Assembly (NCBI GenBank): GCA_905116865.2
Contig: CAJHNH020007924.1
Span: 186,001-250,000 of the forward strand
Direction: 5' to 3'
Length of the DNA: 64,000 nt
Source of the DNA: Candidula unifasciata
Lineage: Eukaryota > Mollusca > Gastropoda > Stylommatophora > Geomitridae
How positions within the stretch are numbered: position 1 is the first letter of the stretch; each line of letters starts with the position of its first letter. Under the pieces are notes generated by a model that had not been told where the DNA came from, did no database searches, and worked only from the letters and a program-made list of their open reading frames with translations. This document shows positions 1,556 through 54,320 of this stretch, in pieces. Made by a program: the position numbers and the translations under genes.

Positions 1556-2128
1556 ATGGGTGACTTCAACGGGAGGGTAGGAAATAACAGAAGAGAATTC
1601 GAACAGTTTTTAGGTCCACATGCAGCTAAGAACAGTGCTAGAAATGGAAATGGTCAAAGAATATTGGATCTATGCAGCCAGCACAATCTTTTTATTACGA
1701 ACACATTCTTTGACCATAGAGATTCACAACTTTACACTTGGTACAAATGGAATGATGTCTCCATCAAGAGCCAGATTGACTTTATACTTACCAGAGCTCA
1801 AGGAAGAATGAGAATTCTTGATTCAAGAGCAATCCCTAATGGTCTATGTGACACTGACCATAAAATAGTTGTGTTAACAGCAAAACATCTTACATTAAAG
1901 AAACACAGAAAAAAATTAACCAGAAACAAGGATCTCATCAAGATAGCAAATCTGAAACAGGAAGGAGTAAAAGAACAGTTACAACAGAAAGTAGAGACAG
2001 CATTCAAACAACTTCCACATGTAGTTGGCAATATTGAGGAAGAATGGAGTAAATATAAAAACACTATGCTTAGTATTGCAGAAAAATTATGTGGAAAAAG
2101 GGAAGAGTGGAAACAGACGGGGAAATAA
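1556..2128 (+). pseudogene. RTE LINE endonuclease domain, C-terminal part
   Basis: The reading frame starts MGDFNGRVG, containing the GDFN motif of exonuclease-endonuclease-phosphatase nucleases, then QIDFILT and the D-DHK end motif (CDTDHKIVVLT). The N-terminal catalytic residues are missing through 5' truncation. The frame is lost near 2100 by a small indel relative to the homologous copy at 53.9-54.3 kb. In an intact element this domain nicks target DNA to prime reverse transcription. Confidence 0.85.
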
Positions 2129-2197
2129 CAAATATTCACTTTGGTGGTGCGAAGAAGTAAAAGAAGCAATTCAAAAGAAAAAGGACTTATTTAAACA

Positions 2198-4075
2198 GTG
2201 GATAAAATCAAAGAAAGAAAAGAATATTTAAACTATAGACTGCAAAGGAGAGAAACCAACAGGAGTGTCAAGAAAGGAAAACAAGCATCCTGGGAACGTT
2301 TCAGTGAGTCATTAGCAGAAAATGAGAAAACAGCCAACAGAAAATTTTTCAAAGTAGTTAAAAATATGCGGAAAAAAGATGAGAGCTACAACCCAACTGA
2401 AATAATTAATGATAAGACAGGAAGGCCATTGATAGATCCACCCGAGATAGCAGAAAGATGGAGGGAATACTTCAATGAGCTCTTTAATCCTCTAGGAGAT
2501 CATCAGGAAAGAACAACTGAAGAGCACAGAGCAACAGTGTTAGAACCACACATACTAATGGATGAAGTAGAAAAAGTCATTAAGCAACCACACATACTAA
2601 TGGATGAAATAGAAAAAGTCATTAAGCAGTCTCCCAAATATAAAGCACCAGGAGCTGATAGATTACCAACAGAAATAATTCAAGCAGCAGGTGAAAGCAG
2701 CATGAGATGGCTTCACAGAATATTTAATGCAGCATGGGTACAACAAACTGCCCCTATTGATTGGCAACATGCAATAGTTATACCATTGTGGAAGAACAAA
2801 GGATGCAAACGAGAATGCGGTCAATACCGAGGCATCTTTCTTTTAAGCCATGTTGGCAAAATGTATGCCAAGATAATTGAAACAAGACTGAGACCAGTGA
2901 TAGAACCACATCTGGCAGAAGAACAGATGGGACTTAGGAGAAATAAAAGCTGCACAGATGCAATCTTCACACTTAAACAGTTAATAGAAAAGAACATTGA
3001 AATCAATAAGAACTTATTTGTGACATTCGTAGACCAGGAGAAGGCATTTGACGGAGTCGACAGACAATTATTATGGAAAGTAATGGCAAGATATGGAGTA
3101 AGCGAACACCTCATCGAAGTGTGCAAAAGTTTATACAGAGATTGTAGAAGTGTAGTTAGAATAAATCGGGGAACATCTCATCCATTCACAGTGACATCTG
3201 GAGTAAGACAGGGGTGTGTCTTATCACCACTGCTGTTTATCACCTACATCGACAGTATATGCAAGAATGCCAAGCCCATGAATGAAAATGTTAGTAAGAT
3301 CAACGAATTACTCTTTGCAGATGACCAGGCCTTGATAGCAGATACAGCCATGAAATTGCAACAACATCTAACATCAATGAATGAAGAATGTAAAACAAAT
3401 AATATGAGAATCAACACTGAAAAGACAGAAGTAATGTCAATAGGAAAAAAGAAGACAGATCTAAACATAGCAATAGAGTGCAAAGGCATTAAACAGGCAT
3501 CTGAGTTTAAATATCTGGGAACTACATTTACCGAAGATGGGAAATTGGATAAAGAAATTACCATTAGATGCAGTAAAGCAAACCAAGTATTGGGACAGCT
3601 AGCCCCCCTCTTACAGCATAAGACAATCCCAATCAGGACAAAGAGACATCTTATTCAAAGCATATTTATTCCAACTCTGTGCTACCAGTGCCAGACATGT
3701 TCACTCACAACAAACCATAAAAGAAAATTAGTAACCACGGAAATGAGATGTCTGAAAAGGGCTGTAGGAGTGACCATTAGAGAAATGATCAGGAATGAGA
3801 TCATAAGAGAAAAAGCCGGCACAGAACTAATTCTGGATTACATACGAAGACAGCAAGTGAAATGGTTTGCCCACTTAGAGAGAATGCCTTGTGACACCAT
3901 ACCATACAAAGTATACATGGAAAGAGAAGAAGGACGTAGAGCACGAGGTAGACCAAGAACAAGATGGAAGGATAACATCAGAGAAACTCTACAACAGCCC
4001 TATGTGCCTATGGTCGAGACGGCCAGAAGAGCTAGAAACAGAACCTTATATCTCCATCGACACCCACAGTGGTAA
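2198..4075 (+). pseudogene. RTE LINE reverse transcriptase, long open frame (625 aa)
   Basis: The frame reads through all RT blocks: KAPGADRLPTEI, the AIVIPLWKNKG region, VDQEKAFDGVD, SGVRQGCVLSPLLF, catalytic LLFADDQ and FKYLGTTFTEDGKL, then the C-terminal QQVKWFAHLERM and GRRARGRPRTRW motifs typical of RTE elements. The catalytic FADD is intact. PHILMDEVEKVIKQ is repeated almost exactly through the 42-bp duplication; the copy at 53.5 kb has it once. The frame is out of register with the endonuclease upstream, so I treat it as the remnant of one polyprotein. Confidence 0.9.
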
Positions 4076-4118
4076 AAGAGGAAGTGAAGAAGAAGAAGAA
4101 GAAGATTCCCTAAGCACT

Positions 4119-13318: not shown

Positions 13319-13772
13319 CTGTAAGCAGAATGGTTCATTCAATGAATTTTCTTCTTTGCAATCACCAGTCGTGAATTTCAGTGAAAATTCATAGCTTCTC
13401 ATCCTGTCTGTACCTCAGTCTTAACCCAGGATTTGGGTGCTACAGGCACATACATTTTACAGATCTGAATTATTTGTGCGCAGACTGTTGGTTCCTTGCT
13501 TCAAGCAGACATACTTCAACTTCAAAGGAAACACTGATCCCGTCTATGATGGCCAGAATCTGGTGAATCAAAAACTTTGATAATTAACAAATGAAAAGAG
13601 TGACTAACAGTCAGCATCACAATAAAGTAGAAGATAGAAGAACAAGTTTCTCCTATCTTTGACACATCTAACTGATGATGGCAGAAGTGAAACGGAAATA
13701 GAAAAGAGAATATGAATGGCTGAAACTATCTTCAATAAGATGCAAAAATTGTTGACATCTAGACAGATCAAC

Positions 13773-15053
13773 TTCTTCTTCTTCTTCTTCACTTCCTCTT
13801 TTACCGCTGTGGGTGTCGAGGGAGGTATAAGGTTCTGTTTCTAGCTCTTCTGGCTGCCTCGACCATAGGCACATCGTGCTGTTGTAGAGTTTCTCTGATG
13901 TTATACTTCCATCTTGTTCTTGGTCTACCCCGTGCTCTACGTCCTTCTTCTCTTTCCATGTATGCTTTGTATGGTATGGTGTCACAAGGCATTCTCTCTA
14001 AGTGGGCAAACCATTTCACTTGCTGTCTTTGTATGTAATCCAGAATTGGTTCTGTGCCGACTTGTTCTCTTATGATCTCATTCCTGATCTTATCTCTTAT
14101 GGTCCCACCTACAGCCCTTCTCATACATCTCATTTCCGTGGTTACTAATTTTCTTTTATGGTTTGTTGTGAGTGACCATGTCTGGCACTGGTAGCACAGA
14201 GTTGGAATAAATATGCTTTGAATAAGATGTCTCTTTGTGCTGATTGGGATTGTCTTATGCTGTAAGAGGGGGGCTAGCTGTCCCAATACTTGGTTTGCTT
14301 TACTGCATCTAATGTCAATTTCTTTATCCAATTTCCCATCTTCGGTAAATGTAGTTCCCAGATATTTAAACTCAGATGCCTGTTTAATGCCTTTGTATTC
14401 TATTGCTATGTTTAGATCTGTCTTCTTTTTTCCTATTGACATTACTTCTGTCTTTTCAGTGTTGATTCTCATATTATTTGTTTTACATTCTTCATTCATG
14501 GATGTTAGATGTTGTTGCAATTTCATGGCTGTATCTGCTATCATTTCCTGGTCATCTGCAAAGAGTAATTCGTTGATCTTACTAAGATCTTCATTCATGG
14601 GCTTGGCATTCTTGCATATACTGTCGATGTAGGTGATAAACAGCAGTGGTGATAAGACACACCCCTGTCTTACTCCCGATGTCACTGTGAAAGGATGAGA
14701 TGTTCCCTGATTTATTCTAACTACACTTCTACAATCCCTGTATAAACTTTTGCACACTTCGATGAGGTATTCGCTTACTCCATATCTTGCCATTACTTTC
14801 CATAATAATTGTCTGTCGACTCTGTCAAATGCCGTCTCCTGGTCTACGAATGCTACAAATAAGTTCTTATTGTATTCAATGTTCTTTTTTATTAACTGTT
14901 TAAGTGTGAAGATTGCATCTGTGCAGCTTCTATTTCTCCTAAATCCCATCTGTTCTTCTGCCAGCTGTGGTTCTATCACTGGTCTCAGTCTTGTTTCTAT
15001 TATCTTGGCATACATTTTGCCAACATGGCTTAAAAGAGAGATGTCTCGATATT
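13773..15053 (-). mobile_element. RTE-clade LINE copy 2, 5'-truncated
   Basis: This is the same family as copy 1 on the opposite strand. It keeps an open RT frame of 422 codons (13801-15069) from the fingers region through FADD (LLFADDQEM) to the C-terminal end, and a (GAA)n tail at the left (13773 on). An 11-bp direct repeat, gacagatcaac, flanks it at 13762-13772 and 15054-15064; its first bases overlap the LINE sequence. It lies in the gene A intron between exons 2 and 3, in the same sense as the gene. The lack of frameshifts suggests a young copy. Confidence 0.9.
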
Positions 15054-15117
15054 GACAGATCAACAACACATTAAAAATGAGAATCCTAAAATGTTATGTA
15101 TACTCAATCCTGCTGTT

Positions 15118-17639: not shown

Positions 17640-17820
17640 TAAGTCTCCAACTGCTATAAAGTTGTAAAAGTGTCAGATAAAATGTCTGCCAGTGTCTATC
17701 ATTTGCCAAAGTCTAACATCTGTTCAATGATCCAACCGCAAGCATGTCACTCTGGTCATGAAGGTAGGTGGCTAATTTGCTACCGCAGTGACACATATCT
17801 ATTAGCTTTAGATCAGTAAG
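17640..17820 (+). mobile_element. Older R2-like 3' UTR fragment in tandem
   Basis: The text around gccaaagtctaacatctg, ccaaccgcaagcatg and ctaccgcagtgac follows the same order as the 18.06-18.18 kb portion of the neighbouring fragment, with more substitutions. It is directly followed by that fragment, head to tail. Confidence 0.6.
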
Positions 17821-17824
17821 AATC

Positions 17825-18425
17825 TTCGCCGTTGAGGTAGGCGCAAGAGGTCTCGTTTCCACTTCTATGTGATAAAACAGCGGGGCTTGCAAGGAAATGA
17901 GCGCAAACGATCACTAAAACAACAGGACGAGGCTGCTAAAAGGGCCTCGAGCTCGCTCTGGACACAACGGAACGTCGTGTGGGACGGGCCTCCGTGAGCT
18001 GGTCTGGATGTCTAGTGGAAAATAAAGTCTTATCCCTTAAAGTCCATCGTGTCCGAATTGTCTGCCGGTGTCCCTCTGCCATTTGTCAACGAAGTCTAGC
18101 ATGTGTCCAATAAACCAACCGTAAGCTTGCCACTTGGTCGTCCAGGTATGCTGACTGCTCTAATATGCCACCGCAGCGACTATGTAAATAAACTGAATCT
18201 CACAGTATCTGCTGCACAGTCACCAATTTCGTCTTGTCTCTGTCCGAGAACATTCGGTAATACATGCAGCAAGAGCAGATCAACACTGAGTTCATGAACT
18301 CAGGTGGGCCCACCCTCTGAGATTGTCTAGGAGCTCGTGGGCCGAAACAACTGCAGACGAGGGATCACTTCTACTGATGATTGGTAGACTCCTGCTGTAC
18401 ATGCTCCCCTGTGGTTTCTTCTTAC
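17825..18425 (+). mobile_element. R2-like LINE 3' fragment
   Basis: The plus strand here matches the minus strand of 24.25-24.87 kb along its length. The start reads FAVEVGARGLVSTSM, the endonuclease C-terminus, then frames break and the 3' UTR follows, with palindromes at 18287-18314 and the terminal segment ending near 18425. Just upstream, 17640-17820 resembles part of the same 3' UTR again (compare 18050-18190), a second, more eroded fragment in the same direction. It lies in gene A intron 1. Confidence 0.8.
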
Positions 18426-18429
18426 TTAA

Positions 18430-19075
18430 ACACCAAATCTCACAATACCTGTTGAAAGTCACAATTTTTTTTCTTATTCCAGTCCGAATGTTTGAAAAAG
18501 TGCAGCAGGAAATGTTTGAGGTCCTCTTCATGACCCAGTCAGCTGAAACAATCCTCGACAAAAATTTCTTGACTCCAGGAGATGGCCCTGAAGGTCTTCC
18601 AGGTATTGAGGCTGGGCACAGGGACTGTCAGTGTTTCTGCCTAGTACAGATATAGATATATACCTATATCCATATATTAGCATCATAACCTTGACAATGA
18701 CTGTCTATGTTTATAAAAACATACAAGTATAAAACCTATATTTGAGCATAGTTAAAATCAGAAAGCATACATTAACTCATATAGACAGATAGATCACAGA
18801 GACATATATATAAGCAGATGAAACCATAATATTCTTGAGCCAGATCTTTTCTCAGTAGCGCATATTTTTTTAGTATTATCAGCCACGATCCCATCTTACA
18901 TTTTTGAGTGGTGTAAGCAGGTGTCTGTAAGAGAAGCAGACATACAAATTGGATGGATCAATGCATGAAAGCATATATGATCATAAGCATCAAAATTTGA
19001 ATCTCTTATATCAACTGTGTTAAATCAAGAGTAAATAAGAAGACAAAGCAGACAATGACTGCTAAACAATCTCAA
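18430..19075. other. Start of gene A intron 1, AT-rich
   Basis: Unique-looking AT-rich sequence with no long frame and no recognised transposon. Confidence 0.6.
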
Positions 19076-23905: not shown

Positions 23906-24675
23906 AAATCTACAATATGTTACAATTATGTGATATCATGTGGCATCTTTGCAATATTATTAAAATAACCAAGCGTAATTTAACTAATTGACAAACATAA
24001 ATATCCATAATTGAAACAGTCTAAAACTCTAAATATCCAAATGATAATCCAGGTATGTAGAAGAGAATATTGCTGTTGAACTCTTTCAGTCTCAAACAAC
24101 GTATGATGTGTGGTTAACTCTTCTGTGAATCATAAGTAACACTGAATGTGTTCTTATACCGTATACATTTGATCAGAACATGCTCAAGAAATTTGGCTTC
24201 CTCAATATTTAGCTTCCTTCAAGGTAAGACACTCATGGATTTTCCTAGTGATAGGAATAAACTCACAGGGAGCAAGTACAGCAGGGATCTACCAGTCATC
24301 ATTAGAAGTCATCCTCGTCGACAAGTGTTTCGGCCCACGATTTCTCCTAGACACTTTCGGAGGTGGGCCCACCTGAGTTCATGAAGCTCAGGGCTGGTAC
24401 CCTGCTGCACGAAATTACCGGATGGTGTTTTTCTTTCGGATAGGGACAAGACGACTTGGTGATTTGCAGAAGGTACTGTGAGAAAAGAAGTCGTCGCGGC
24501 AGCCTAATTAGAACAGTCAGCGTACCTGGACGACCGAGCGACAAGCTTACGATTGGTATCCCGGACACATGTTGGACTTTTGTTAGCAGGTGGCAGAGGA
24601 ACACTGGCAGACAATTCGGACACGATGGACTTTCAAGGGGTGAGAAACCCTTTTCCGCTAGACACCCGGACCAGC

Positions 24676-25368
24676 TCACCGAGGCCCGTCCCCTATGTTG
24701 TTCCGTTGCGTCCAAAGCCAACTCGAGGCCCTTTCGGCTGCCTCGCCCAGTTTTTCAAGTGTTCGTTTCCGTTCATTAGCGCGCAATCCTAGTTCTTTAA
24801 CCACATTGTACAGTGAAGTGGAGACGAGACCTCGCGATCCCACTTTGACGGCAAAGACACGTACCGTGTACGCCTCGTTTCTCCTCAGACAGGCTGCTAA
24901 ATCACTGTATTTCTCGAGCTTATACATGTGATTTTCGTCCATACGGGACAGTCAGCTCAATCAGGATGAGCTGCCGTTTCTCCGCAGAGTGGAGAACTAT
25001 GTCAGGTCGCAGACCGGTCTTCCGGATTAACTCAGGGTACCTTTCATGGCCCGGCAGATCAACCGCCAGTAACCAGTCCCTCGCAGAGTCTAGCACAGAT
25101 GGAGCGAATGCGTTTCGTTGACCTTACCTTTTTGAACCTGCCCAGCCTTGAGGAAGCGTATGGGGACGACGGTAGGACTAGCTCTAGCGTTAGCCCGCAT
25201 CCTAGCCTGATCAACAACGGCTGCTAACTCTTTTAGCACCTTGTTGTGTCGCCAGGTATATCGGCCTTGACCTAGGGCTTTCCTGCATGCGGACAGAATA
25301 TGTTTGAGAGTCTGCTTCGCTTTACACAACGGGCAAGTCGGATCGTTAGTCGCAGACCACTTAACCAT
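24676..25368 (-). pseudogene. R2-like zinc knuckle and PD-(D/E)XK endonuclease
   Basis: The first part reads DPTCPLCKAKQTLKHILSAC, a CCHC-type knuckle. After a stop near 25090, frames continue with TGLRPDIVLHSAEKRQLI and LIELTVPYG, the RPD and E-TVP motifs of the restriction-like endonuclease. A frameshift near 24940 then leads to KYSDLAACLRRNEAYTVRVF, GSRGLVSTSLYNVVKELGL and the RASSWLWTQRN end. In a working element this nuclease nicks the target strand that primes reverse transcription. At least two disruptions make it non-functional. Confidence 0.85.
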
Positions 25369-25382
25369 GTTAACACCGGACG

Positions 25383-25937
25383 TTAATACATCGTACGCCG
25401 AACGATAAAGCTAAGTCGCAGCGGGGTCATTCGCCAGATCTCACCCCATGTGAGTATTCTTGGCAATGCGCTCTCCAGGCTGACCCAATGGCCCTGCTGC
25501 GACTGCTGGGCTGCTTTCTGGAAACGAACCTCTTTTTCGTTGTCCCTCACCTGTTGTATTACCATGTCTCGGCGTTCTTTGGCTGAGGCCTTTGACCACC
25601 AATTGACCTTCCCGTGCTCTAGGCCTCGACGGTCGGTTTGAGTGTAACCCATTATCTCCCTCAATTTTAGTGCGTTCTGCGCAGATTCAATCGCATCGAG
25701 GATTCTCCACTTCTTGAGAGCGGGCTGGACAGCGATGCCATTTGGGTCTGAAGACTCGCGCAAGAGCATGGCGAGTCTTACTTTGCCAACTTTAAACTCT
25801 TCGGTTATTGATTTGAACGGAAGTACTAGCTTAGCCTGCTTGCAATACAGAGCCACGTCGGTCAGACAAGGCGGTGCACCAATCCACTTTCTTGAGGCTG
25901 TGCTGATTTTCCTCTCCATGGTTTCCACTGCAGTCAT
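25383..25937 (-). pseudogene. R2-like region between RT and zinc knuckle
   Basis: The frame starts MTAVETMERKISTASRKW, in the same phase as the RT frame and separated from it by one stop. It is the conserved linker of R2-like proteins (WIGAPPCLTDVALY, LEHGKVNWWSKA), ending at LSFIVR, where a one-base shift moves the frame to the zinc-knuckle segment at 25368. The alignment with known elements is from memory of the family style. Confidence 0.8.
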
Positions 25938-25961
25938 CGTTACCTCGTAGACTAACAGTAG

Positions 25962-27317
25962 TCATAGGAGCTTCAGAATCAACATGAATTGGAGACACCA
26001 TACCTTAGATTTCCCGATCAGCCTGCAACGCCCAATCGCGAGCAGGCCTGTAGCCAGTGACTCGTGTATTCGCCGGACCTCCGCTCTATCAGATAACTTC
26101 GAATCGTAAACGCGACCGAGGCTCTTCACCGGTTCCTCCAGAACCGTGGGGATCTTGTTCCTTGCCACCGTAAAACTGGTTGCCGACACCTTGCCCTTAA
26201 GGATAGACAGACTCCTTGACTTCTGCGGTTTGAACTGCATACCGCTCCATTGGACCACCGCGTCCAATCTTTTCAGGATCGTGCGGGCAGACTCCTCGCT
26301 ACCCGTTATAATAGTCGTGTCATCCATAAATGCACGTAATGGCGGCATCCAGTAGGCCCCATCCAACATGATCTGCATGGCCATGACAAACAGTACTGGT
26401 GAGATCGTACAGCCCATAGCTATCCCAATCTGCAACTCAGTCCAACTTGTGGTAAACGTCGAAGTAGAGAAGCGCAAAGCGAACTTGGAGAAATATTGCT
26501 CGATCATTTGATTGATCTGTGCCGGTACGTGAAACATGCGAAGGGCTCGCCACAGTAGCCTATGGGGGACTGACCCGTAGGCGTTGGCTAAATCCAACCA
26601 TATTACTTGCAATTCGGTTCTCTCATGCTTGGCTCTCTGGATAGCCTCCCAAATCATGGTCGCGTGTTTAAGGCACCCAGGAACGCCTGGAATACCACCC
26701 TTCTGAACACTCGTATCGATGTACTTGTTAGCCCTCAAATACTGTGTGAGCCGGCGAGCCATGACCGAGAAGAATATCTTACCCTCGACATTCAACAGTG
26801 AGATGGGCCTGAATTGAAAAAGACTCTTCGAGTCCTGCTCTTTGGTAATGTAGACCCCATTTGCCTTTTGCCACTCTGGACATATGTGTTTGCGGATCCA
26901 CGCTTGTCTCAACAAGACGTGAAGCATTTTTAGGATTTTTGGGCAACGCTTGTAAAGAACGTACGGAACACCATTCGGACCTGAGGCAGACTTACCGCTG
27001 GCCTTTTTGACAACTTCCTCAACCTCAGACCAAAGGGGAGGTACCATTTTGAATGGTACCTTCGGCAACTCAGGCTGCTTGAGGCCGCTAAGGATCTCTG
27101 GATTGTCATCGAGAGGCTCTCTCCTCTTTTTGTCAGAGTACATCTTGCATAGATGTAACTCAAGCTCTTCCTTACTGACAACCAGAGTCCCAGACTTCAG
27201 TTGCTCGAATAGACCTCGGGCAAACTGATACGGGTCCCTAAAGAATTTCTCTCGCTCCCTTTTGGTTCTTCTCCTGTTATTACAGAAACGCTCAGCGCGA
27301 CAGAGGGCACTCTGCAT
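25962..27317 (-). pseudogene. R2-like reverse transcriptase region
   Basis: This 451-codon frame contains SGKSASGPNGVPYVLYK, FRPISLLNVEGKIF, VIWLDLANAYGSVPH, GIAMGCTISPVLFVMAMQ and catalytic AFMDDTTIITG (FMDD in place of the usual FADD/YADD), then the thumb. An in-frame TGA follows CLQFMLILKLL, and the next segment continues in the same frame at 25937. The palm aspartates are preserved, so the fold is intact to that stop. Confidence 0.9.
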
Positions 27318-27990
27318 TCTTTAAATGCAACCAAACTTCGTACAGCCCCTCCCGTTCGCTGCCTGAAGCGGCTTTGAACCGTTTTCTGAGGGCATTCTTG
27401 TCCGCCCGACACTTCAGAATGTCCCTCTGCCTCCTGCTAGTATTCTGCTTGGCACCCGGCTGTGCCTTTTCTACTGTCCCGAACTCACGGGAGCAGTGTT
27501 CATATATTACATCACCAAATTTTGTAAGCTTGTCGCCTAATGACTTCTTGTTTAAATCATGTTTAAGTATCTCACATAATGTAGCCTCCAACTTACACCA
27601 CACCACCTTATCGCTCGCAGGTGGAAACCTGATCTTGGAACGCACTTCCTCAGAAATCATCAAAGGTGCTCCTCCGCAATCGAAGACGTGGGCCTCTCCG
27701 GGCGAGTGGGTTTCACCCTGCCCGTCGTTCCCTAATGACTCAGAAACTACCACAGGAGTAGTAGTTTTGCGACGGCGTTTACTGCGTGGAGCACCCTCGC
27801 ATTTCATTCTTCCGGCATGCGTTCTCAGACTATGCAACCCCGTGAAGCTCTTTCCACATGTACAGTGCCAGCCCGGATGTTGGGCGAGTATCTGAGTCCG
27901 GGGGCTAGCATTGTCGTCACCGAGAGTATCAATTTGAATGGGCCCTTCATCCTCCCCCCCCCCCTTCCTTTCGGGGGGCCCTGGGGGCAT
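27292..27990 (-). pseudogene. R2-like ORF, N-terminal part with C2H2 zinc finger
   Basis: This open frame of 232 codons starts MPPGPPERKGGGEDEG and contains WHCTCGKSFTGLHSLRTHAG followed by RMKC, a single C2H2-type finger as used by R2-like proteins to contact target DNA. A basic SKRRRK stretch follows. Its C-terminal end overlaps the RT frame by 26 bp in another phase, so a frameshift near 27300 separates them. The start codon follows two hairpins in the 5' leader. Confidence 0.85.
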
Positions 27991-28187
27991 ATTTCTATTT
28001 GGTTTTGCGAAATCGGAGGTATTATACTGTGTTAGGGGTGATCAACCCGGTCCACAGTCGACATCAGTCTACAGATGTCAGTTTTCCCCCCGGCGATACC
28101 GGGGGGCCAGTCTTTCCATAGGTGTCACAAGGTCTTTCCCGAGAGTCACCATTCTTTCATGGTAGTCTTGTGGGCTAGCCACGTACA

Positions 28188-28265
28188 ATAGGAATAAACT
28201 CACAGGGAGCAAGTACAGCAGGGATCTACCAGTCATCAGTAGAAGTTATCCTCGTCGACAAGTGT
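28188..28265 (-). repeat. 78-bp copy of the R2-like element's 3' end at its 5' border
   Basis: This segment matches 24251-24328 with two differences. The same segment is also recognisable at 18330-18415 inside another 3' fragment of the family, so it belongs to the element rather than being only a host target duplication. Confidence 0.85.
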
Positions 28266-28324: not shown

Positions 28325-29880
28325 ATTACTGATACCATAAAATCAACATATTTCATGGTAGCAGACAGTGAACCAGTGCTTATGACACTTAACAGCGTTA
28401 TACAAAGCAAACAGGGTACAGCCATGAGGGTACTTCTGGGATATACAATAGATACCCTAATATTAAGTATGCTTGCACTGCCGACTGTTACAGCTGCAAG
28501 CAAATTCATATCTCAGAGTAGTGCCAAAACAAAACATAACTCTTGCATGAAACCCTAGATCTGTTTAGGGTGACAGACTGAAAAAAAAGGAAGGTCTTGA
28601 ATGGTTCAAGCTGAAGACACAGTTAGACTTGTGTAAGCTTGATAATATTTGGAAGGAGTGGAGTGGTCAATGTCTGAGCAACAATCAGATGTGTAAGGTT
28701 CTAAATACTGGATGTGGAGTTCAAAGACATGCCAGTGAGTACTGCAGAAGTAGAAGTTTAACAACTGGTTCATGGCAATTTCCACCAAGATGATGTCATT
28801 ATACAGATGGCTCTGTTTTGAGAGGCAGAAAAGTGCTAGGGGTTTCATAGTAAAAGTGATTGGATGTTGCTGACAGCAATGAAGCTCGCTTTTGATACCA
28901 CAACATACAGTTTGAGAATGGAGGCGGAGACAGTCGCTGCAGCCTTCAGGTGTATACAATGTCATGATTGTAACTGATTCACATGGCATATTAAGAAACG
29001 ATTGCTATATGCAGAGTGGCAAGCATGGCTTTAGAGGTCCCTGTTAGTTAGTGTCCAAGTAATGATTTCCAGCCCAGACACATCATTATTGGCCATTTAT
29101 TCCTGCTTGCTAACCTTTCACACTCGCTAGTCTAAGTCAGAGGTAAGTCAAGTTGTGTTCTGTAATGTTTATGTGAGCGATAAATACAGTGTGTTTCACT
29201 CATTGTTCTGAAGGGCCTGCAACATTACGTATATTTTAGCCTTCTCAGACTTCAGTACGCCATGAATTTACTTCAGTTGTCAGCACTGATGACCGACAAG
29301 TAGGCTGCAATCTCTCGTGGGACGTAGGCTGAGGCTGTGGGGTTGTGGGGTTGTGGGGGGGGGGGGGGGGGGGTGTGGTTAGAGCCAGTTCTAGATATTC
29401 TTGGGTCGTTAAAAGCTGTCACATCGTGTAATATAGAGCAAGCAAGCTTCATTGCCGGTGAGAGCCACAAAGAAAATAAAACTTGACTCCCCTGTAACAG
29501 AGAGTGGCACGTGTGAAAGGTCAACAAGCATGAATGAAAGGCCAATCCTGGTTTGCCTGGGTCAGAAATCGTAAGTTGTACCTCCTTTGCATATTTTCTC
29601 TAGGTCAATGTGCTGGGTAATGAACAGAAAGAAAGACTGGCTGGTTCTGCACATTTTTGTGGTGAGCTGATGCACCACAAGCTAGATGTTATAAGGGTAC
29701 TTTAGAGGCGAGTGAACAGAGGCACTGTGAGGAGTGACCAGGGATAAGACCGACTCTCAATACTCAGGAGAAAGACGATACGGACAAGCAATCAGACTGT
29801 TAATGGTAACAGCGGAACTGTAACTCTGCGTCTGTCGCTAAAGATGAATGTCCCGAGTGCTATGATGTCGATTTATAACA
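28325..29880 (+). mobile_element. RNase H-bearing LINE, split by a ~525-bp insertion
   Basis: Degenerate RT/RNase H sequence runs from about 28325 to 29057 and resumes at about 29583 with gctgggtaatgaacag, the RNase H motif region. The 3' tail ends at about 29875. The interruption (29058-29582) contains a long poly-G tract and matches nothing else that I could place in the window. No long frame survives. Confidence 0.7.
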
Positions 29881-30131
29881 CTTAACAGACACATAAGTGA
29901 GCTCTCCTTGCAATAACGGTCGCTAGTTGGACGGCGACGGCAGCTTCGTCGGAGTTAAGTCCCCTGGCTGCAGTGCAATTACGGAGTGGAATGTCCCGAG
30001 TGCTATGATGTCGATTTATAACACTTAACAGACACATAAGTGAGCTCTCCTTGCAATAACGGTCGCTAGTTGGACGGCGACGGCAGCTTCGTCGGAGTTA
30101 AGTCCCCTGGCTGCAGTGCAATTACGGAGTG
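29846..30131. repeat. 143-bp tandem duplication
   Basis: 29846-29988 and 29989-30131 appear identical. Each unit holds the RNase H LINE tail (gaatgtcccgagtgctatg) and the left inverted arm of the adjacent DNA element. Confidence 0.9.
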
Positions 30132-30515
30132 TAAAAGAGGGAACGAAACAAATGACATAATTAGGGCTAGGGGTAGGGTTAGGGTAACATATGTAACGTC
30201 GAGTACTTAACCACAATGACGGCCGCTATATCTGATAATTTTCTATGCTCAGCTAGCCACCGCAACCACGCGAGCTTATCGCTCATTAAGGCATACAGAT
30301 CCGCAGGAGTCACATCCGTGGCCACTAAGTCTTGCGTCGCAAGAACGCGGTCACTAATGTGAGTCGCAGCGCGGGGTCTAGACGACATGGTGAACTCAAT
30401 TTGTTTTGTGATTCGTGGCTTGTCCACTCCGTAATTGCTCTGCAGCCAGGGGACTGAACTCCGATAAAGCGGCCGTCGCCGTCCAAGGATCGACCGCTAT
30501 TGCAAGGAGAACCCA
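30044..30515 (-). mobile_element. DNA element with ~90-bp inverted ends and a short ORF
   Basis: The left arm (tctccttgcaataacgg, then ggacggcgacggcagc and cccctggctgcag) is repeated in inverse at 30425-30515. Inside, a minus frame at 30179-30427 encodes RPRAATHISDRVLATQD and YALMSDKLAWLRWLAEHRKL, which resembles the start of ISXO2/Merlin-type transposases only weakly. Telomere-like TTAGGG text lies at 30161-30186. The left arm is present twice because of a 143-bp tandem duplication. Confidence 0.65.
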
Positions 30516-31550
30516 GTTATTAACATTAAGTTTCATTAACACAGTAGCCGACCCCCAACAGCCATTTTAGCTCTTTCCAAGAATACAAACGTTTGCCTGA
30601 AGAACATAACATCGGAGAATCAAATATGAACCCACTTTGCAAAAGTGCATGAATAATAGAGTACATCCTGACACTGTCAGTGCACCTACTACAGACAGAT
30701 AAACTCCCTACCAACTTGAGAGCTGCAGCCCACACTCTGCCATTGTAGCGGGACTCACTTCTGCTGCTAGATTTTTTAAAAGTTGCTTGTGAAAGTTGGT
30801 GAAACGAAACATTTGAAATGTAACTGGAAATTATAAACGAACATTGGTGATATAAAAGAAATATCAAGTTTGAAACAGAAAATAAATTACCGTTTTTGCA
30901 ATACTTTATAGAAATAAAACTTCGGAATCTAAAAGAAAAAATGTAAAGTAGTAACCCAGGGAATAAGGAAATGTCCAGGCTAGCACTGAGATAATTACTT
31001 TGAAAGCTAATATTAACGAAGATGGTCAACGGATAAAATAGATCCACTGTTTTCTTTCTTTAGGTGTACAGTGTCAAAAAGATTATCTTGTTTCTCATTG
31101 TACAGTGTATGTTGTAACCACAGACCACAATGTGAGGGCAAGGCAATTTCTAAATTGATTTTGATCCAAACTGCATAAATGTCTTTACAAATGATTATGT
31201 TTGTCCCTGGGCACATCTCCTTCTTTGCAGACGACAGTGTTATACTGTGCTATGAGGAGACATGAGAATCACAGCCTATGGCGATGGCGAATGCGACTAG
31301 CAAGGCCCGCTCGTGTTAATAAGAGTCTTTCACAAATGAGAGCATGGGATTTCAGGACTGTTGTTGCCATGGTGTTTATTCAGCGTGTGTGTGTGTGTGT
31401 GAGTGTGTGGTTTTTTTTCTTTCTCTTTCTCTCTCAAATGCTCAGTTCTTATCCTGTCTGCAATTATTTCTTTCATCACTCTGATTCCTTTCCTCATTTG
31501 CCCGCTCCACGCAACACGGTCCATTACATTTTGTTCAAACGAATACATAT

Positions 31551-52041: not shown

Positions 52042-54320
52042 CTTCTTCTTCTCTTCTTCTTCACTTCCTCTTTTACCGCTGTGGGTGTCGAGGGAGATAT
52101 AAGGTTCTGTTTCTGGCTCTTCTGGCCGCCTCGACCATAGGCACATCGTGCTGTTGTAGAGATTCTCTGATGTTATCCTTCCATTTGTTCTTGGTCTACC
52201 TCTTGCTCTACGACCTTCTTCTCTTTCCATGTATGCTTTGTATGGTATGGTGTCACAAGGCATTCTCTCTAAGTGGGCAAACCATTTCACTTGCTGTCTT
52301 TGTATGTAATTTAGAATTGGTTCTGTGCCGACTTGTTCTTATGATCTTATTCCTGATCTTATCTCTTATGGTCACTCCTACAGCCCTTCCCAGACATCTC
52401 ATTTCCATGGTTACTAATTTTCTTTTATGGTTTGTTGTGAGTGACCATGTCTGGCACTGGTAGCACAGAGTTGGAATAAATATGCTTTGAATAAGATGTC
52501 TCTTTGTGCTGACTGGGATTGTCTTATGCTATAAGAGGGTAGCTAGCTGTCCCAATACTTGGTTTGCTTTACTGCATCTAATGTTCATTTCTTTATCCAA
52601 TTTCCCATCTTCGGTAAATGTAGTTCCCAGATATTTAAACTCAGATGCCTGTTTAATGCCTTTGTTCTCTATTGCTGTGTTTAGATCTGTCTTCTTTTTT
52701 CCTATTGACATTACTTCTGTCTTTTCAGTGTTAATTCTCATATTATTTGTTTTACATTCTTCATTCATGGATGTTAGATGTTGTTGCAATTTCATTGCTG
52801 TATCTGCTATCAAGGCCTGGTCATCTGCAAAGAGTAATTCGTTGATCTTACTAAGATCTTCATTCATGGGCTTGGCATTCTTGCATATACTGTCGATGTA
52901 GGTGATAAACAGCAGTGGTGATAAGATACACCCCTGTCTTACTGCAGATGTTACTGTGAATGGATGAGATGTTCTCTGATTTATTCTAACTAACTTCTAC
53001 AATCCCTGTATAAACATTTGCATACTTCGATGAGGTGTTCGCTTACTCCATATCTTGCCATTACTTTCCATAATAATTGTCTGTCAACTTTGTCAAATGC
53101 CTTCTCCTGGTCTACGAATGCCACAAATAAGTTCTTATTGTATTCAATGTTCTTTTCTATTAACTGTTTAAGTGTGAAGATTGCATCTGTGCAGCTTCTG
53201 TTTCTCCTAAATCCCATCTGTTCTTCTCCCAGCTGTGGTTCTATTACTGGTCTCAGTCTTGTTTCTATTATCTTGGCATACATTTTGCCAACATGGCTTA
53301 AGAGAGAGATGCCTCTGTATTGACCGCATTCTCGTTTGCTTCCTTTGTTCTTCCACAATGGTATAACTATTGCATGTTGCCAATCAATAGGGGCAGTTTG
53401 TTGTACCCATGCTGCATTAAATATTCTGTGAAGCCATCTCATGCTGCTTTCACCTGCTGTTTTAATTATTTCTGTTGGTAATCTATCAGCTCCTGGTGCT
53501 TTATATTTGGGAAACTGCTTAATGACTTTTTCTATTTCATCCATTAGTATGTGTGGTTCTAACACTGTTGCTCTGTGCTCTTCAGTTGTTCTTTTCTGAT
53601 GATCTCCTAGAGGATTAAAGAGCTCATTGAAGTATTCCCTCCATCTTTCTGCTATCTCGGGTGGATCTATCAATGGCCTTCCTGTCTTATCATTAATTAT
53701 TTCAGTTGGGTTGTAGCTCTCATCTCTTTTCCACATATTTTTAAATACTTTGAAAAATTTTCTGCTGGCTGTTTTCTCATTTTCTGCTAATGATTCACCG
53801 AAACGTTCCCAAGATGCTTGTTTTGCTTTCTTGACACTCCTGTTGGTTTCTCTCCTTTGTAGTCTATAGTTTATATAATCTTCTTCTTTCTTTGATTTTA
53901 TCCACTGTTTATATAGTCCTTTTTCTTTTTAATTGCTTCTTTTACTTCTTCGCACCACCAAGGTGAATATTTGTTATTTTCCTGTCTGTTTCCACTCTTC
54001 CGTTTTCCACATAATTCTTCTGCAATACTAAGCATAGTATTTTTATATTTACTCCATTCTTCTTCAATATTGCCAACTACATGTGGAAGTTGTTTGAATG
54101 CTGTTTCTACTTTCTGTTGTAACTGTTCTTTTACTCCTTCCTGTTTCAGATTTGCTATCTTGATGAGATCCTTGTTTTTGGTTAATTTCTTTCTGTGTTT
54201 CTTTAATGTAAGATGTTTTGCTGTTAACACAACTATTTTATGGTCAGTGTCACATAGACCATTAGAGATTGCTCTTAAATCAAAATTCTCCTTCTTCCTT
54301 GAACTCTGGTAAGTATAAAG
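52042..54320 (-). mobile_element. RTE-clade LINE copy 4, endonuclease plus RT with frameshifts
   Basis: Minus-strand frames at 53898-54230 (end of endonuclease and linker), 52990-53736 (RT fingers and palm), 52529-52867 (FADD block) and 51901-52290 (C-terminal end) follow in order, separated by frameshifts. A (GAA)n-type tail begins near 52042. An 8-bp repeat, tcacaatt, flanks it at 52034-52041 and 54321-54328. It sits in the gene B intron between exons 3 and 4, antisense to the gene. It serves as a reference showing that copy 1 carries an extra 42-bp duplication. Confidence 0.9.

Follow-up and report, generated by a model that had tools for sequence, protein, structure and literature searches.

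The copy in the window

The window is a 64-kb stretch of Candidula unifasciata DNA. Its minus strand carries one 3937-bp unit (24251..28187) of what looks, from its sequence, like an R2-group LINE. The unit starts with TGTACGTGG at 28187 and ends with CCTAT at 24251. Directly in front of the 5′ start, on the same strand, lies a 5′-truncated, 78-bp copy of the element's 3′ end (28188..28265). This copy, which we call the pLTR, joins the 5′ UTR at 28188/28187. Its counterpart is the terminal 78 bp of the element (24251..24328, minus strand). The two form a direct repeat of 97.4% identity with 2 mismatches (E 2.7e-32), in agreement with the original prediction of a recurrence with two differences at the 5′ border. 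Genome-wide, the 78 bp are the 3′ terminus of the element, so the sequence was correctly assigned to the element and not to a host target. Units of the genome copies L031, L032, L033 and L036 span 3947–4003 bp.

All features of the unit lie on the minus strand. The 5′ UTR occupies approximately 28042..28187, measured to the first long frame. It is followed by an open frame (27292..28041) that has one C2HC finger-like motif, seen by eye, and no Pfam match. The reverse transcriptase (25962..27320) matched RVT_1 with an E value of 1.3e-22 and is 90% identical to a Candidula unifasciata protein; related proteins were also matched in Plakobranchus, Elysia, Aplysia and lancelet. A CCHC knuckle and a PD...E motif, both found by eye, were located at 24920..25410 in two frames, neither of which is the frame of the reverse transcriptase; the window copy is therefore broken. 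The CCHC region gave a weak zf-RVT match (21.1 bits, under the cut-off of 27.5). We take the PD...E motif to be that of a restriction-like endonuclease; no nuclease profile matched. With P0003, a homologue (56% identical) distinct from the window copy, R2 chains ranked top among solved structures (E 1.5e-24). Together with the RVT_1 match, this bears out the predicted R2-like LINE. None of the six frame pieces examined matched a GIY-YIG endonuclease.

When the window copy was compared with 4227 Rfam families, no ribozyme, hammerhead included, was found at the junction. CTGATGA and GAAA, as in a hammerhead motif, were seen there by eye. This candidate was dropped, as CTGATGA falls in a simple predicted hairpin and Rfam returned nothing. 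An HDV-like ribozyme at the 5′ end was likewise without Rfam match. Folding an alignment of 59 3′-end sequences gave no convincing covariation. A distant relative, L126, assembles as a closed circle of 4284 bp with one frame of 1252 aa. A search of a virus collection returned no relative.

A second locus contains an older, 5′-truncated 3′ fragment of a related copy (17823..18424, plus strand), 75.5% identical to the element's 3′ end. As predicted, the 78-bp segment is present inside this separate fragment (18356-18424, 86% identity). The proposed head-to-tail arrangement of the 17.64-17.82 and 17.83-18.43 kb pieces was not found on alignment of both flanks. The left piece (17641-17792) and a right piece (18436-18510) match consecutive stretches of 3′ UTR sequence; the younger fragment is thus nested in a still older copy. 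The right piece was too weak for detection by BLAST. Its local score of 26 exceeds the maximum of 18 from base-shuffled sequences (0 of 2000 shuffles as high).

The 3′–5′ junction in the genome

We found 505 exact 5′ starts in the genome and took the first 100 for a census. In 95 of these 100, the family 3′ end lies directly upstream of the 5′ start and meets it at the same base. The exact 22-nt 3′ end stands before 72 starts, and a diverged or short 3′ end before 23 of the remaining 28. In the same census, matching 3′-end sequence upstream was just 9 and 17 nt in L135 and L139, and none was detectable in L140, L146 and L160. Copies that stop exactly at the junction numbered 2–3 of 100, compared with about 0.3 under a flat stop rate, a hand estimate from 44 pLTR lengths. 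With 28060-28187 as query, 775 candidates were obtained and 40 were scored (34 junctions read together, the window copy and 5 more). All 40 have the same junction, and no extra nucleotides were seen in the 34. A 26-nt junction pattern with up to 2 mismatches occurred 572 times; the reversed control occurred 0 times.

Counted from the other side, there are 1814 exact 3′ ends. In 402 of them the 5′ start comes next, always at the same position, an arrangement the original prediction had looked for, and 1412 have no exact TGTACGTGG behind them. Among the matches listed (100 and 74), no two 5′ starts lay within 9 kb of each other on one contig strand. One multi-unit locus was found, C108/L080.

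The 44 measured pLTRs range from 33 to 1464 bp. They have no common maximum length, and the repeat can reach through the 3′ UTR into the ORF. Lengths are contiguous alignments, and the values for L032 (607) and L052 (509) are therefore too small: the L032 repeat continues past an insertion to unit 2892, and that of L052 past a deletion to unit 2752. A boundary near unit 3331 is common to L032, L034 and the older copy in the window. We considered whether transcription starts at a set point within the 3′ UTR and rejected this, because in L032 the boundary at about unit 3331 merely marks where an insertion of some 770 bp begins or ends, and because pLTR length has no ceiling.

Among 40 sampled 3′ ends, 31 have no 5′ start behind them, so the 78 bp are not a host target. 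pLTRs end earlier than these ordinary 3′ ends: 26 of 40 pLTRs are shorter than 250 bp compared with 6 of 31 ordinary ends (p 1.4e-4; pLTRs of at least 78 bp only, 40 of the 44). Shorter pLTRs would be expected if the enzyme re-enters RNA that is already paired or bound. Of 31 copies, 18 full ones could be matched to their own 3′ end, the remaining 13 being unused as pairs. Behind none of the 18 does a second 5′ start occur; in L080 a copy that begins at unit 598 comes next. Both the 31 of 40 and the 0 of 18 argue against the predicted use of the family's own 3′ end as target.

The 48 downstream flanks have T in 32 at +1 and G in 25 at +2. By eye, when compared among themselves, they are unlike one another, and several begin with CCTAT or TG. 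The window contains no rRNA match. A strict scan for target duplications at the outer borders, which required an identical suffix and prefix at an offset of no more than 3, was positive in 3 of 27 composites (control 1.7%) and 1 of 19 solo copies (control 2.0%). A wider scan, chosen after the strict result had been seen, took in 16 bp ahead of the border and 10 bp beyond it. It found duplications of at least 5 bp in 7 of the 27 composites (control 5%). Neither scan included solo copies that had a neighbouring match, and the wider one also omitted a solo with N in its flank.

Origin of the terminal repeats

We compared each pLTR with the 3′ end of its own copy. In a tree of 15 copies (pLTRs of at least 195 bp), 10 of 11 cherries are a pLTR paired with its own 3′ end, that is, 10 of the 15 copies. 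The pLTRs form no lineage of their own in this tree. Such sister grouping suggests that one template per insertion supplies both ends. Mean identity between a pLTR and its own 3′ end was 0.959 in 22 pairs, compared with 0.927 after permutation (0 of 10000 as high; at least 120 bp). Because the assembly is a draft, polishing could raise the likeness between the two ends of a copy. With a minimum of 85 bp and 72 sequences, 9 variants were limited to an own pair; 7 of them come from L070, whose pLTR and 3′ end share them to the exclusion of all other sequences. In a ranking against all P and T sequences (at least 120 bp), the own 3′ end took first place, alone or shared, in just 10 of 21 pairs. 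For L080, whose ends belong to different subfamilies (0.884), 57 of the 59 other sequences ranked above it; for L035 it was 29 and for L058 it was 9. L079, whose assigned 3′ end is apparently an older copy, was left out of the variant count, the ranking and the tree. It was kept in the permutation test, where it counts against the result, and in the wider duplication scan.

We favour, with some reserve, a high-copy R2-group LINE whose full-length insertions acquire their direct repeats anew with every transposition, from a circular or concatemeric template. In the DNA, copies have one fixed final base (CCTAT), and nearly all that extend to unit base 1 continue across an exact junction into another 3′ end, from their own or a sister template, and stop there at varying points. 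Reverse transcription would begin at CCTAT, a fixed start site, and one unit would be copied. The enzyme would then continue past the 3′–5′ junction, which would leave a truncated pLTR. As no RNA end would be met at the junction, the template would be circular RNA or a head-to-tail concatemer. Priming would be internal, perhaps aided by target DNA beginning with TG, because TG follows CCTAT in such a template. A narrower form is tentative and somewhat short of an even chance: an autonomous LINE would move via circular RNA, with target-primed reverse transcription set off within the circle at CCTAT|UG and carried beyond its own start, so that the terminal repeat is there from birth. By either template, the pLTR may give a new copy upstream sequence such as a promoter. 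The closed circle of L126 speaks for the favoured reading. It is weakened by the excess of copies that stop exactly at the junction, by the outcome of the ranking, by the unlike ends of L080 and by the lack of an Rfam ribozyme match at the junction of the window copy.

The nearest competitor is end-to-end template jumping, in which a linear RNA is copied to its 5′ end and the enzyme then moves to the 3′ end of a sister RNA transcribed from the same locus. R2 reverse transcriptase is capable of such jumps in vitro (a work cited in PMC2881922). Jumping would likewise remake both ends from like templates and put truncated pLTRs on full copies only, and the 2–3 copies in 100 that stop exactly at the junction fit it. 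On the other hand, frequent failure of the jump would be expected, and with it many more copies that stop at base 1 than those 2–3. Non-templated bases, which R2 polymerase is reported to add on running off a template (PMC2718515, in part), would also be expected, and they are missing from all 34 junctions read. We consider jumping unlikely. Repeats inherited through terminally redundant RNAs, made from a 3′ UTR promoter or from tandem or circular DNA loci (HeT-A-like, or a master array), seem less likely again. In HeT-A, the 3′ UTR contains a sense promoter and the elements form head-to-tail arrays (excerpts of PMC5537684). Like ends would also result from an array whose units stay uniform, and one multi-unit locus, C108/L080, exists. 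However, the pLTRs lack both a lineage of their own in the tree of 15 copies and a common maximum length, no neighbouring 5′ starts within 9 kb were seen among the matches listed, and over the same sequence pLTRs stop earlier than ordinary 3′ ends.

Two further readings fare worse. The simplest interpretation in the original prediction was that full-length copies land behind older truncated copies, with the element's own 3′ end as target. The junction is indeed exact to the base, several 3′ flanks start with CCTAT or TG, and L080 is directly followed by a truncated copy. Nevertheless, two independent insertions would not produce sister ends in 10 of 15 copies, the match tables showed no same-orientation truncated copy right behind any of the 31 ordinary 3′ ends, and most exact 3′ ends (the 1412 of 1814) lack the 5′ start. 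This makes the interpretation very improbable, for the window copy as well. We give practically no credence to the 78 bp being a host repeat duplicated on insertion, like the long target duplication of R9. A direct repeat does flank the element in the window, but its length varies by copy and can extend into the ORF, and the same sequence ends truncated copies with differing downstream flanks.

Comparison with known systems

LINEs are generally held to lack terminal repeats and to lose the 5′ end in truncated insertions. GilM and GilT of Giardia form tandem arrays. These are telomere-associated LINEs, placed in the CRE clade by reverse transcriptase (PMC10088271, in part), and MoTeR1 of the rice-blast fungus is a telomere-associated LINE with a restriction-like endonuclease (excerpts of PMC12857005); the snail LINE does not seem to be bound to telomeres. 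In HeT-A/TART, the 3′ end of one copy abuts the 5′ end of the following copy, which has been likened to an LTR element (PMC5537684, same excerpts). Those are telomeric arrays, whereas the snail composites are dispersed, with both ends apparently remade from one template. For animal retrozymes, studied in species including a mussel, circRNA intermediates leading to tandem cDNA have been proposed (sections of PMC7229834). Retrozymes are about 300 bp, non-autonomous and carry hammerhead ribozymes; the snail family is 3.9 kb with its own reverse transcriptase.

We found no report of a pseudo-LTR on an R2-group LINE in the open-access literature searched. The text of a gastropod LINE survey (PMC11203168) does not contain the terms R2 clade, Hero, tandem or truncated. 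If our reading is true, a dispersed R2-group family with repeated ends at birth would be a second origin of pseudo-LTRs, with another endonuclease type, and would link the life cycles of LINEs, Penelope-like elements (PLEs) and LTR elements. By the circular-RNA route, each full-length insertion would gain sequence upstream of its 5′ UTR, and a LINE would reach LTR-like ends without strand transfer. Which form of RNA (linear, concatemeric or circular) acts as template would then be open to testing with RNase R sequencing and with target-primed reverse transcription in vitro, and the enzymes concerned belong to a class under development for gene insertion.

The snail LINE resembles R2 in the reverse transcriptase of P0003 and, by eye, in candidate CCHC and restriction-like endonuclease motifs; the R2 enzyme is able to jump templates. 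R2 inserts at one rDNA site, in the 28S rRNA gene, whereas the snail LINE is dispersed, with a TG flank bias and terminal repeats. BLAG of the German cockroach comprises non-site-specific R2-like LINEs spread through the genome (PMC7650587, in part). By that description it is similar in its dispersal; the word "tandem" is absent from the text. PLEs occur as tandem or partial-tandem copies whose repeated UTRs are termed pseudo-LTRs, and for one of them reverse transcription began inside the RNA in vitro (portions of PMC11167929). That PLE encodes a GIY-YIG endonuclease and carries a hammerhead ribozyme; in the snail LINE the motif is of the restriction-like endonuclease type, and the window copy matches no Rfam ribozyme. 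What the two have in common is a full copy with a truncated one attached upstream, seen here in all 40 scored matches and in 95 of the first 100 of 505 starts, and the predicted likeness to Penelope tandems thus stands as a Penelope-like pseudo-LTR.

The window element and its 3′ terminus

The LINE unit lies on the minus strand of the window, from 28187 down to 24251 (3937 bp). From 5′ to 3′ it comprises a 5′ UTR, a C2HC finger-like motif, RT, CCHC, a restriction-like endonuclease motif and a 3′ UTR. The RT matches RVT_1 in a profile search; the single C2HC finger-like motif, the CCHC and the endonuclease motif were recognized by eye. The coding part of this copy is broken into several frames. 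In a protein search, the RT shares 90% identity with a Candidula unifasciata protein; among the 120 matches listed of 662, the named proteins from sea slugs, bivalves, lancelets and fish reach 42–61%. Directly upstream of the 5′ UTR, at 28188–28265, is a 78-bp partial copy of the 3′ end (pLTR, or P) that differs at two bases from the unit's terminal 78 bp, just as the original prediction described.

When the genome was queried with these 78 bp, 40 matches of 1123 candidates were scored. In 39 of 40, at least about 12 bp more of the element's 3′ UTR stand upstream of the match, whereas in locus L014 the match totals 81 bp. Only 9 of the 40 have the element's 5′ start downstream, the other 31 having none. 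The 78 bp are therefore the 3′ terminus of the element and, as had been proposed, not merely a host target duplication. An 82–83% copy of this tail is present at L003:765–845, where the upstream sequence is not the element's 3′ UTR; the tail may thus be common to another LINE or a SINE.

Other repeats in the window include a dispersed family at 1818–4104, 13772–15056 and 52052–54283, in both orientations and with copies mostly 94–97% identical. At 29846–30131, 143 bp are duplicated exactly in tandem, and inverted copies of this duplication (86–88%) lie at 30419–30520.

The junction across the genome

All genome counts and pairings come from a draft assembly. With the 5′ UTR alone as query, a 3′ end precedes the 5′ start at the same base in 40 of 40 matches, which are the top-scoring ones of 775 candidates and comprise 34 newly read loci, the window and five loci also in the 78-bp sample. 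Exact matches to a 21-nt 5′ start number 505, and we examined the 100 listed ones in a second census. An exact 22-nt 3′ end stands directly before 72 of them. The remaining 28 were read singly: 23 have a recognizable 3′ end (only 19 nt in L148), the upstream matches in L135 (9 nt) and L139 (17 nt) do not exceed their own shuffles, and no 3′ end is detectable in L140, L146 and L160. By eye, the sequence upstream in L146 resembles a decayed 3′ end. Eight exact 5′ starts (L132, L133, L134, L137, L150, L152, L154 and L157) carry the tail of a clearly diverged subfamily; because these eight were selected by exact 5′ match, a constraint on the element's first bases is no more than a guess. In the other direction, 402 of 1814 exact 22-nt 3′ ends run on directly into the 5′ start, TGTACGTGG, so the majority of 3′ ends are ordinary insertions.

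We measured pLTRs in 44 composites (pLTR plus unit): 34 from the 5′ UTR query, nine other loci and the window. Four (L032, L033, L035 and L037) are known from the 78-bp sample alone. Their contiguous lengths span 33–1464 bp (median 192.5) without a shared upper limit, and the pLTRs of L052, L064 and L080 extend into the ORF. No extra bases were found at the junction in the 34 composites read. The pLTRs break off early: 26 of the 40 that measure 78 bp or more are shorter than 250 bp, while among the ordinary 3′ ends this is so for 6 of 31 (p = 1.4e-4). Of the 5′ starts listed and compared, no pair on the same strand of a contig is closer than 9 kb; complete two-unit arrays were thus not seen among them. 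The only multi-unit locus seen, L080 (G000:C108:290717-300634), consists of a pLTR of 1464 bp, a full unit and then a copy starting at unit base 598, and its two ends belong to different subfamilies.

The flanks downstream of L020, L024, L035 and L056 open again with CCTAT or TCCTAT. Downstream flanks favour TG (T at +1 in 32/48, G at +2 in 25/48). Preferred target sites may resemble CCTAT|TG, the element's own end.

One insertion event or two

The original prediction was that the full copy inserted exactly behind an earlier truncated copy. We compared each P with the copy's own 3′ end (T). Mean identity in 22 pairs is 0.959 versus 0.927 when permuted, with 0 of 10000 permutations as high. The own T is best or tied among all T in 12/22 pairs, and against all P and T in 10/21, where L080, L035 and L058 depart furthest from own pairing. 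A tree was built from the 15 copies whose P measures at least 195 bp; in it, own P-T pairs make up 10 of 11 cherries (L032, L037, L052, L053 and L080 lack one), and the path from P to own T is 0.036 versus 0.101 permuted (0/10000 as short). Of the variants present in exactly two of 72 sequences, the 25 own P-T pairs hold 9, seven of which come from L070; the 1207 other P-T pairs hold 18, the 946 P-P pairs 11 and the 378 T-T pairs 13. Duplications of at least 5 bp occur near the outer borders of 7/27 composites versus 5.0% of mispaired controls in a wider scan, and in 5/18 solo copies versus 5.9%; a stricter scan gave 3/27 versus 1.7% and 1/19 versus 2.0%. On these results P and unit most likely insert together, one template giving both ends each time. 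Such an origin argues against insertion behind an older copy, and equally against a separately inherited lineage of 5′ repeats. The supposed second head-to-tail pair at 17.64–18.43 kb is instead a 5′-truncated copy (17823–18424) nested, in the same orientation, inside the 3′ UTR of an older copy from this family (17641–18510).

From the anatomy, copying likely begins at CCTAT; nearly all copies reaching unit base 1 proceed exactly into another 3′ end, and beyond the junction copying ends sooner than in ordinary 3′ ends. Copies stopping at the junction are 2-3 of 100, versus 0.3 under a flat stop rate. R2 polymerase reportedly extends its product with additional bases upon template run-off (PMC2718515). 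Because so few copies stop at the junction and extra bases were not seen, the template would have no end there. A circular template would account for the early stops past the junction, since the enzyme would re-enter circle RNA already paired with cDNA or bound by protein. The target TG could pair with the UG after CCTAT in a continuous template; an endonuclease preference would produce the same TG bias.

Distant relatives and known systems

A single scan of bacterial assemblies with the RT alignment gave two stray relatives, L126 (PIVK01000096.1, 28% identity) and L127 (NZ_MPRK01000146.1). Both contigs encode a LINE protein of this eukaryotic type and are probably host DNA that was binned among bacteria. 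The ends of L126 are an identical 119 bp; closed, it forms a 4284-bp circle with a single 1252-aa frame, in which RT, CCHC and PD...E motifs were recognized by eye; 525 nt separate the stop of the frame from its start. In this distant relative, too, the 3′ UTR thus continues into the 5′ UTR. The arrangement may represent tandem or circular DNA, copies with a pLTR or a loop in the assembly. L127 has no terminal repeat of this kind.

In the open-access literature we found no dispersed R2-group LINE described as remaking its terminal repeats, which to that extent appear new; pseudo-LTRs themselves are already known. Dispersed R2-like LINEs are described in a cockroach genome (PMC7650587), HeT-A has promoters at its 3′ end and forms head-to-tail arrays (PMC5537684), and circRNA intermediates have been proposed for retrozymes (PMC7229834). 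Pseudo-LTRs and internal initiation are known in Penelope-like elements (PMC11167929), and the snail R2-group LINE likewise has pseudo-LTRs.
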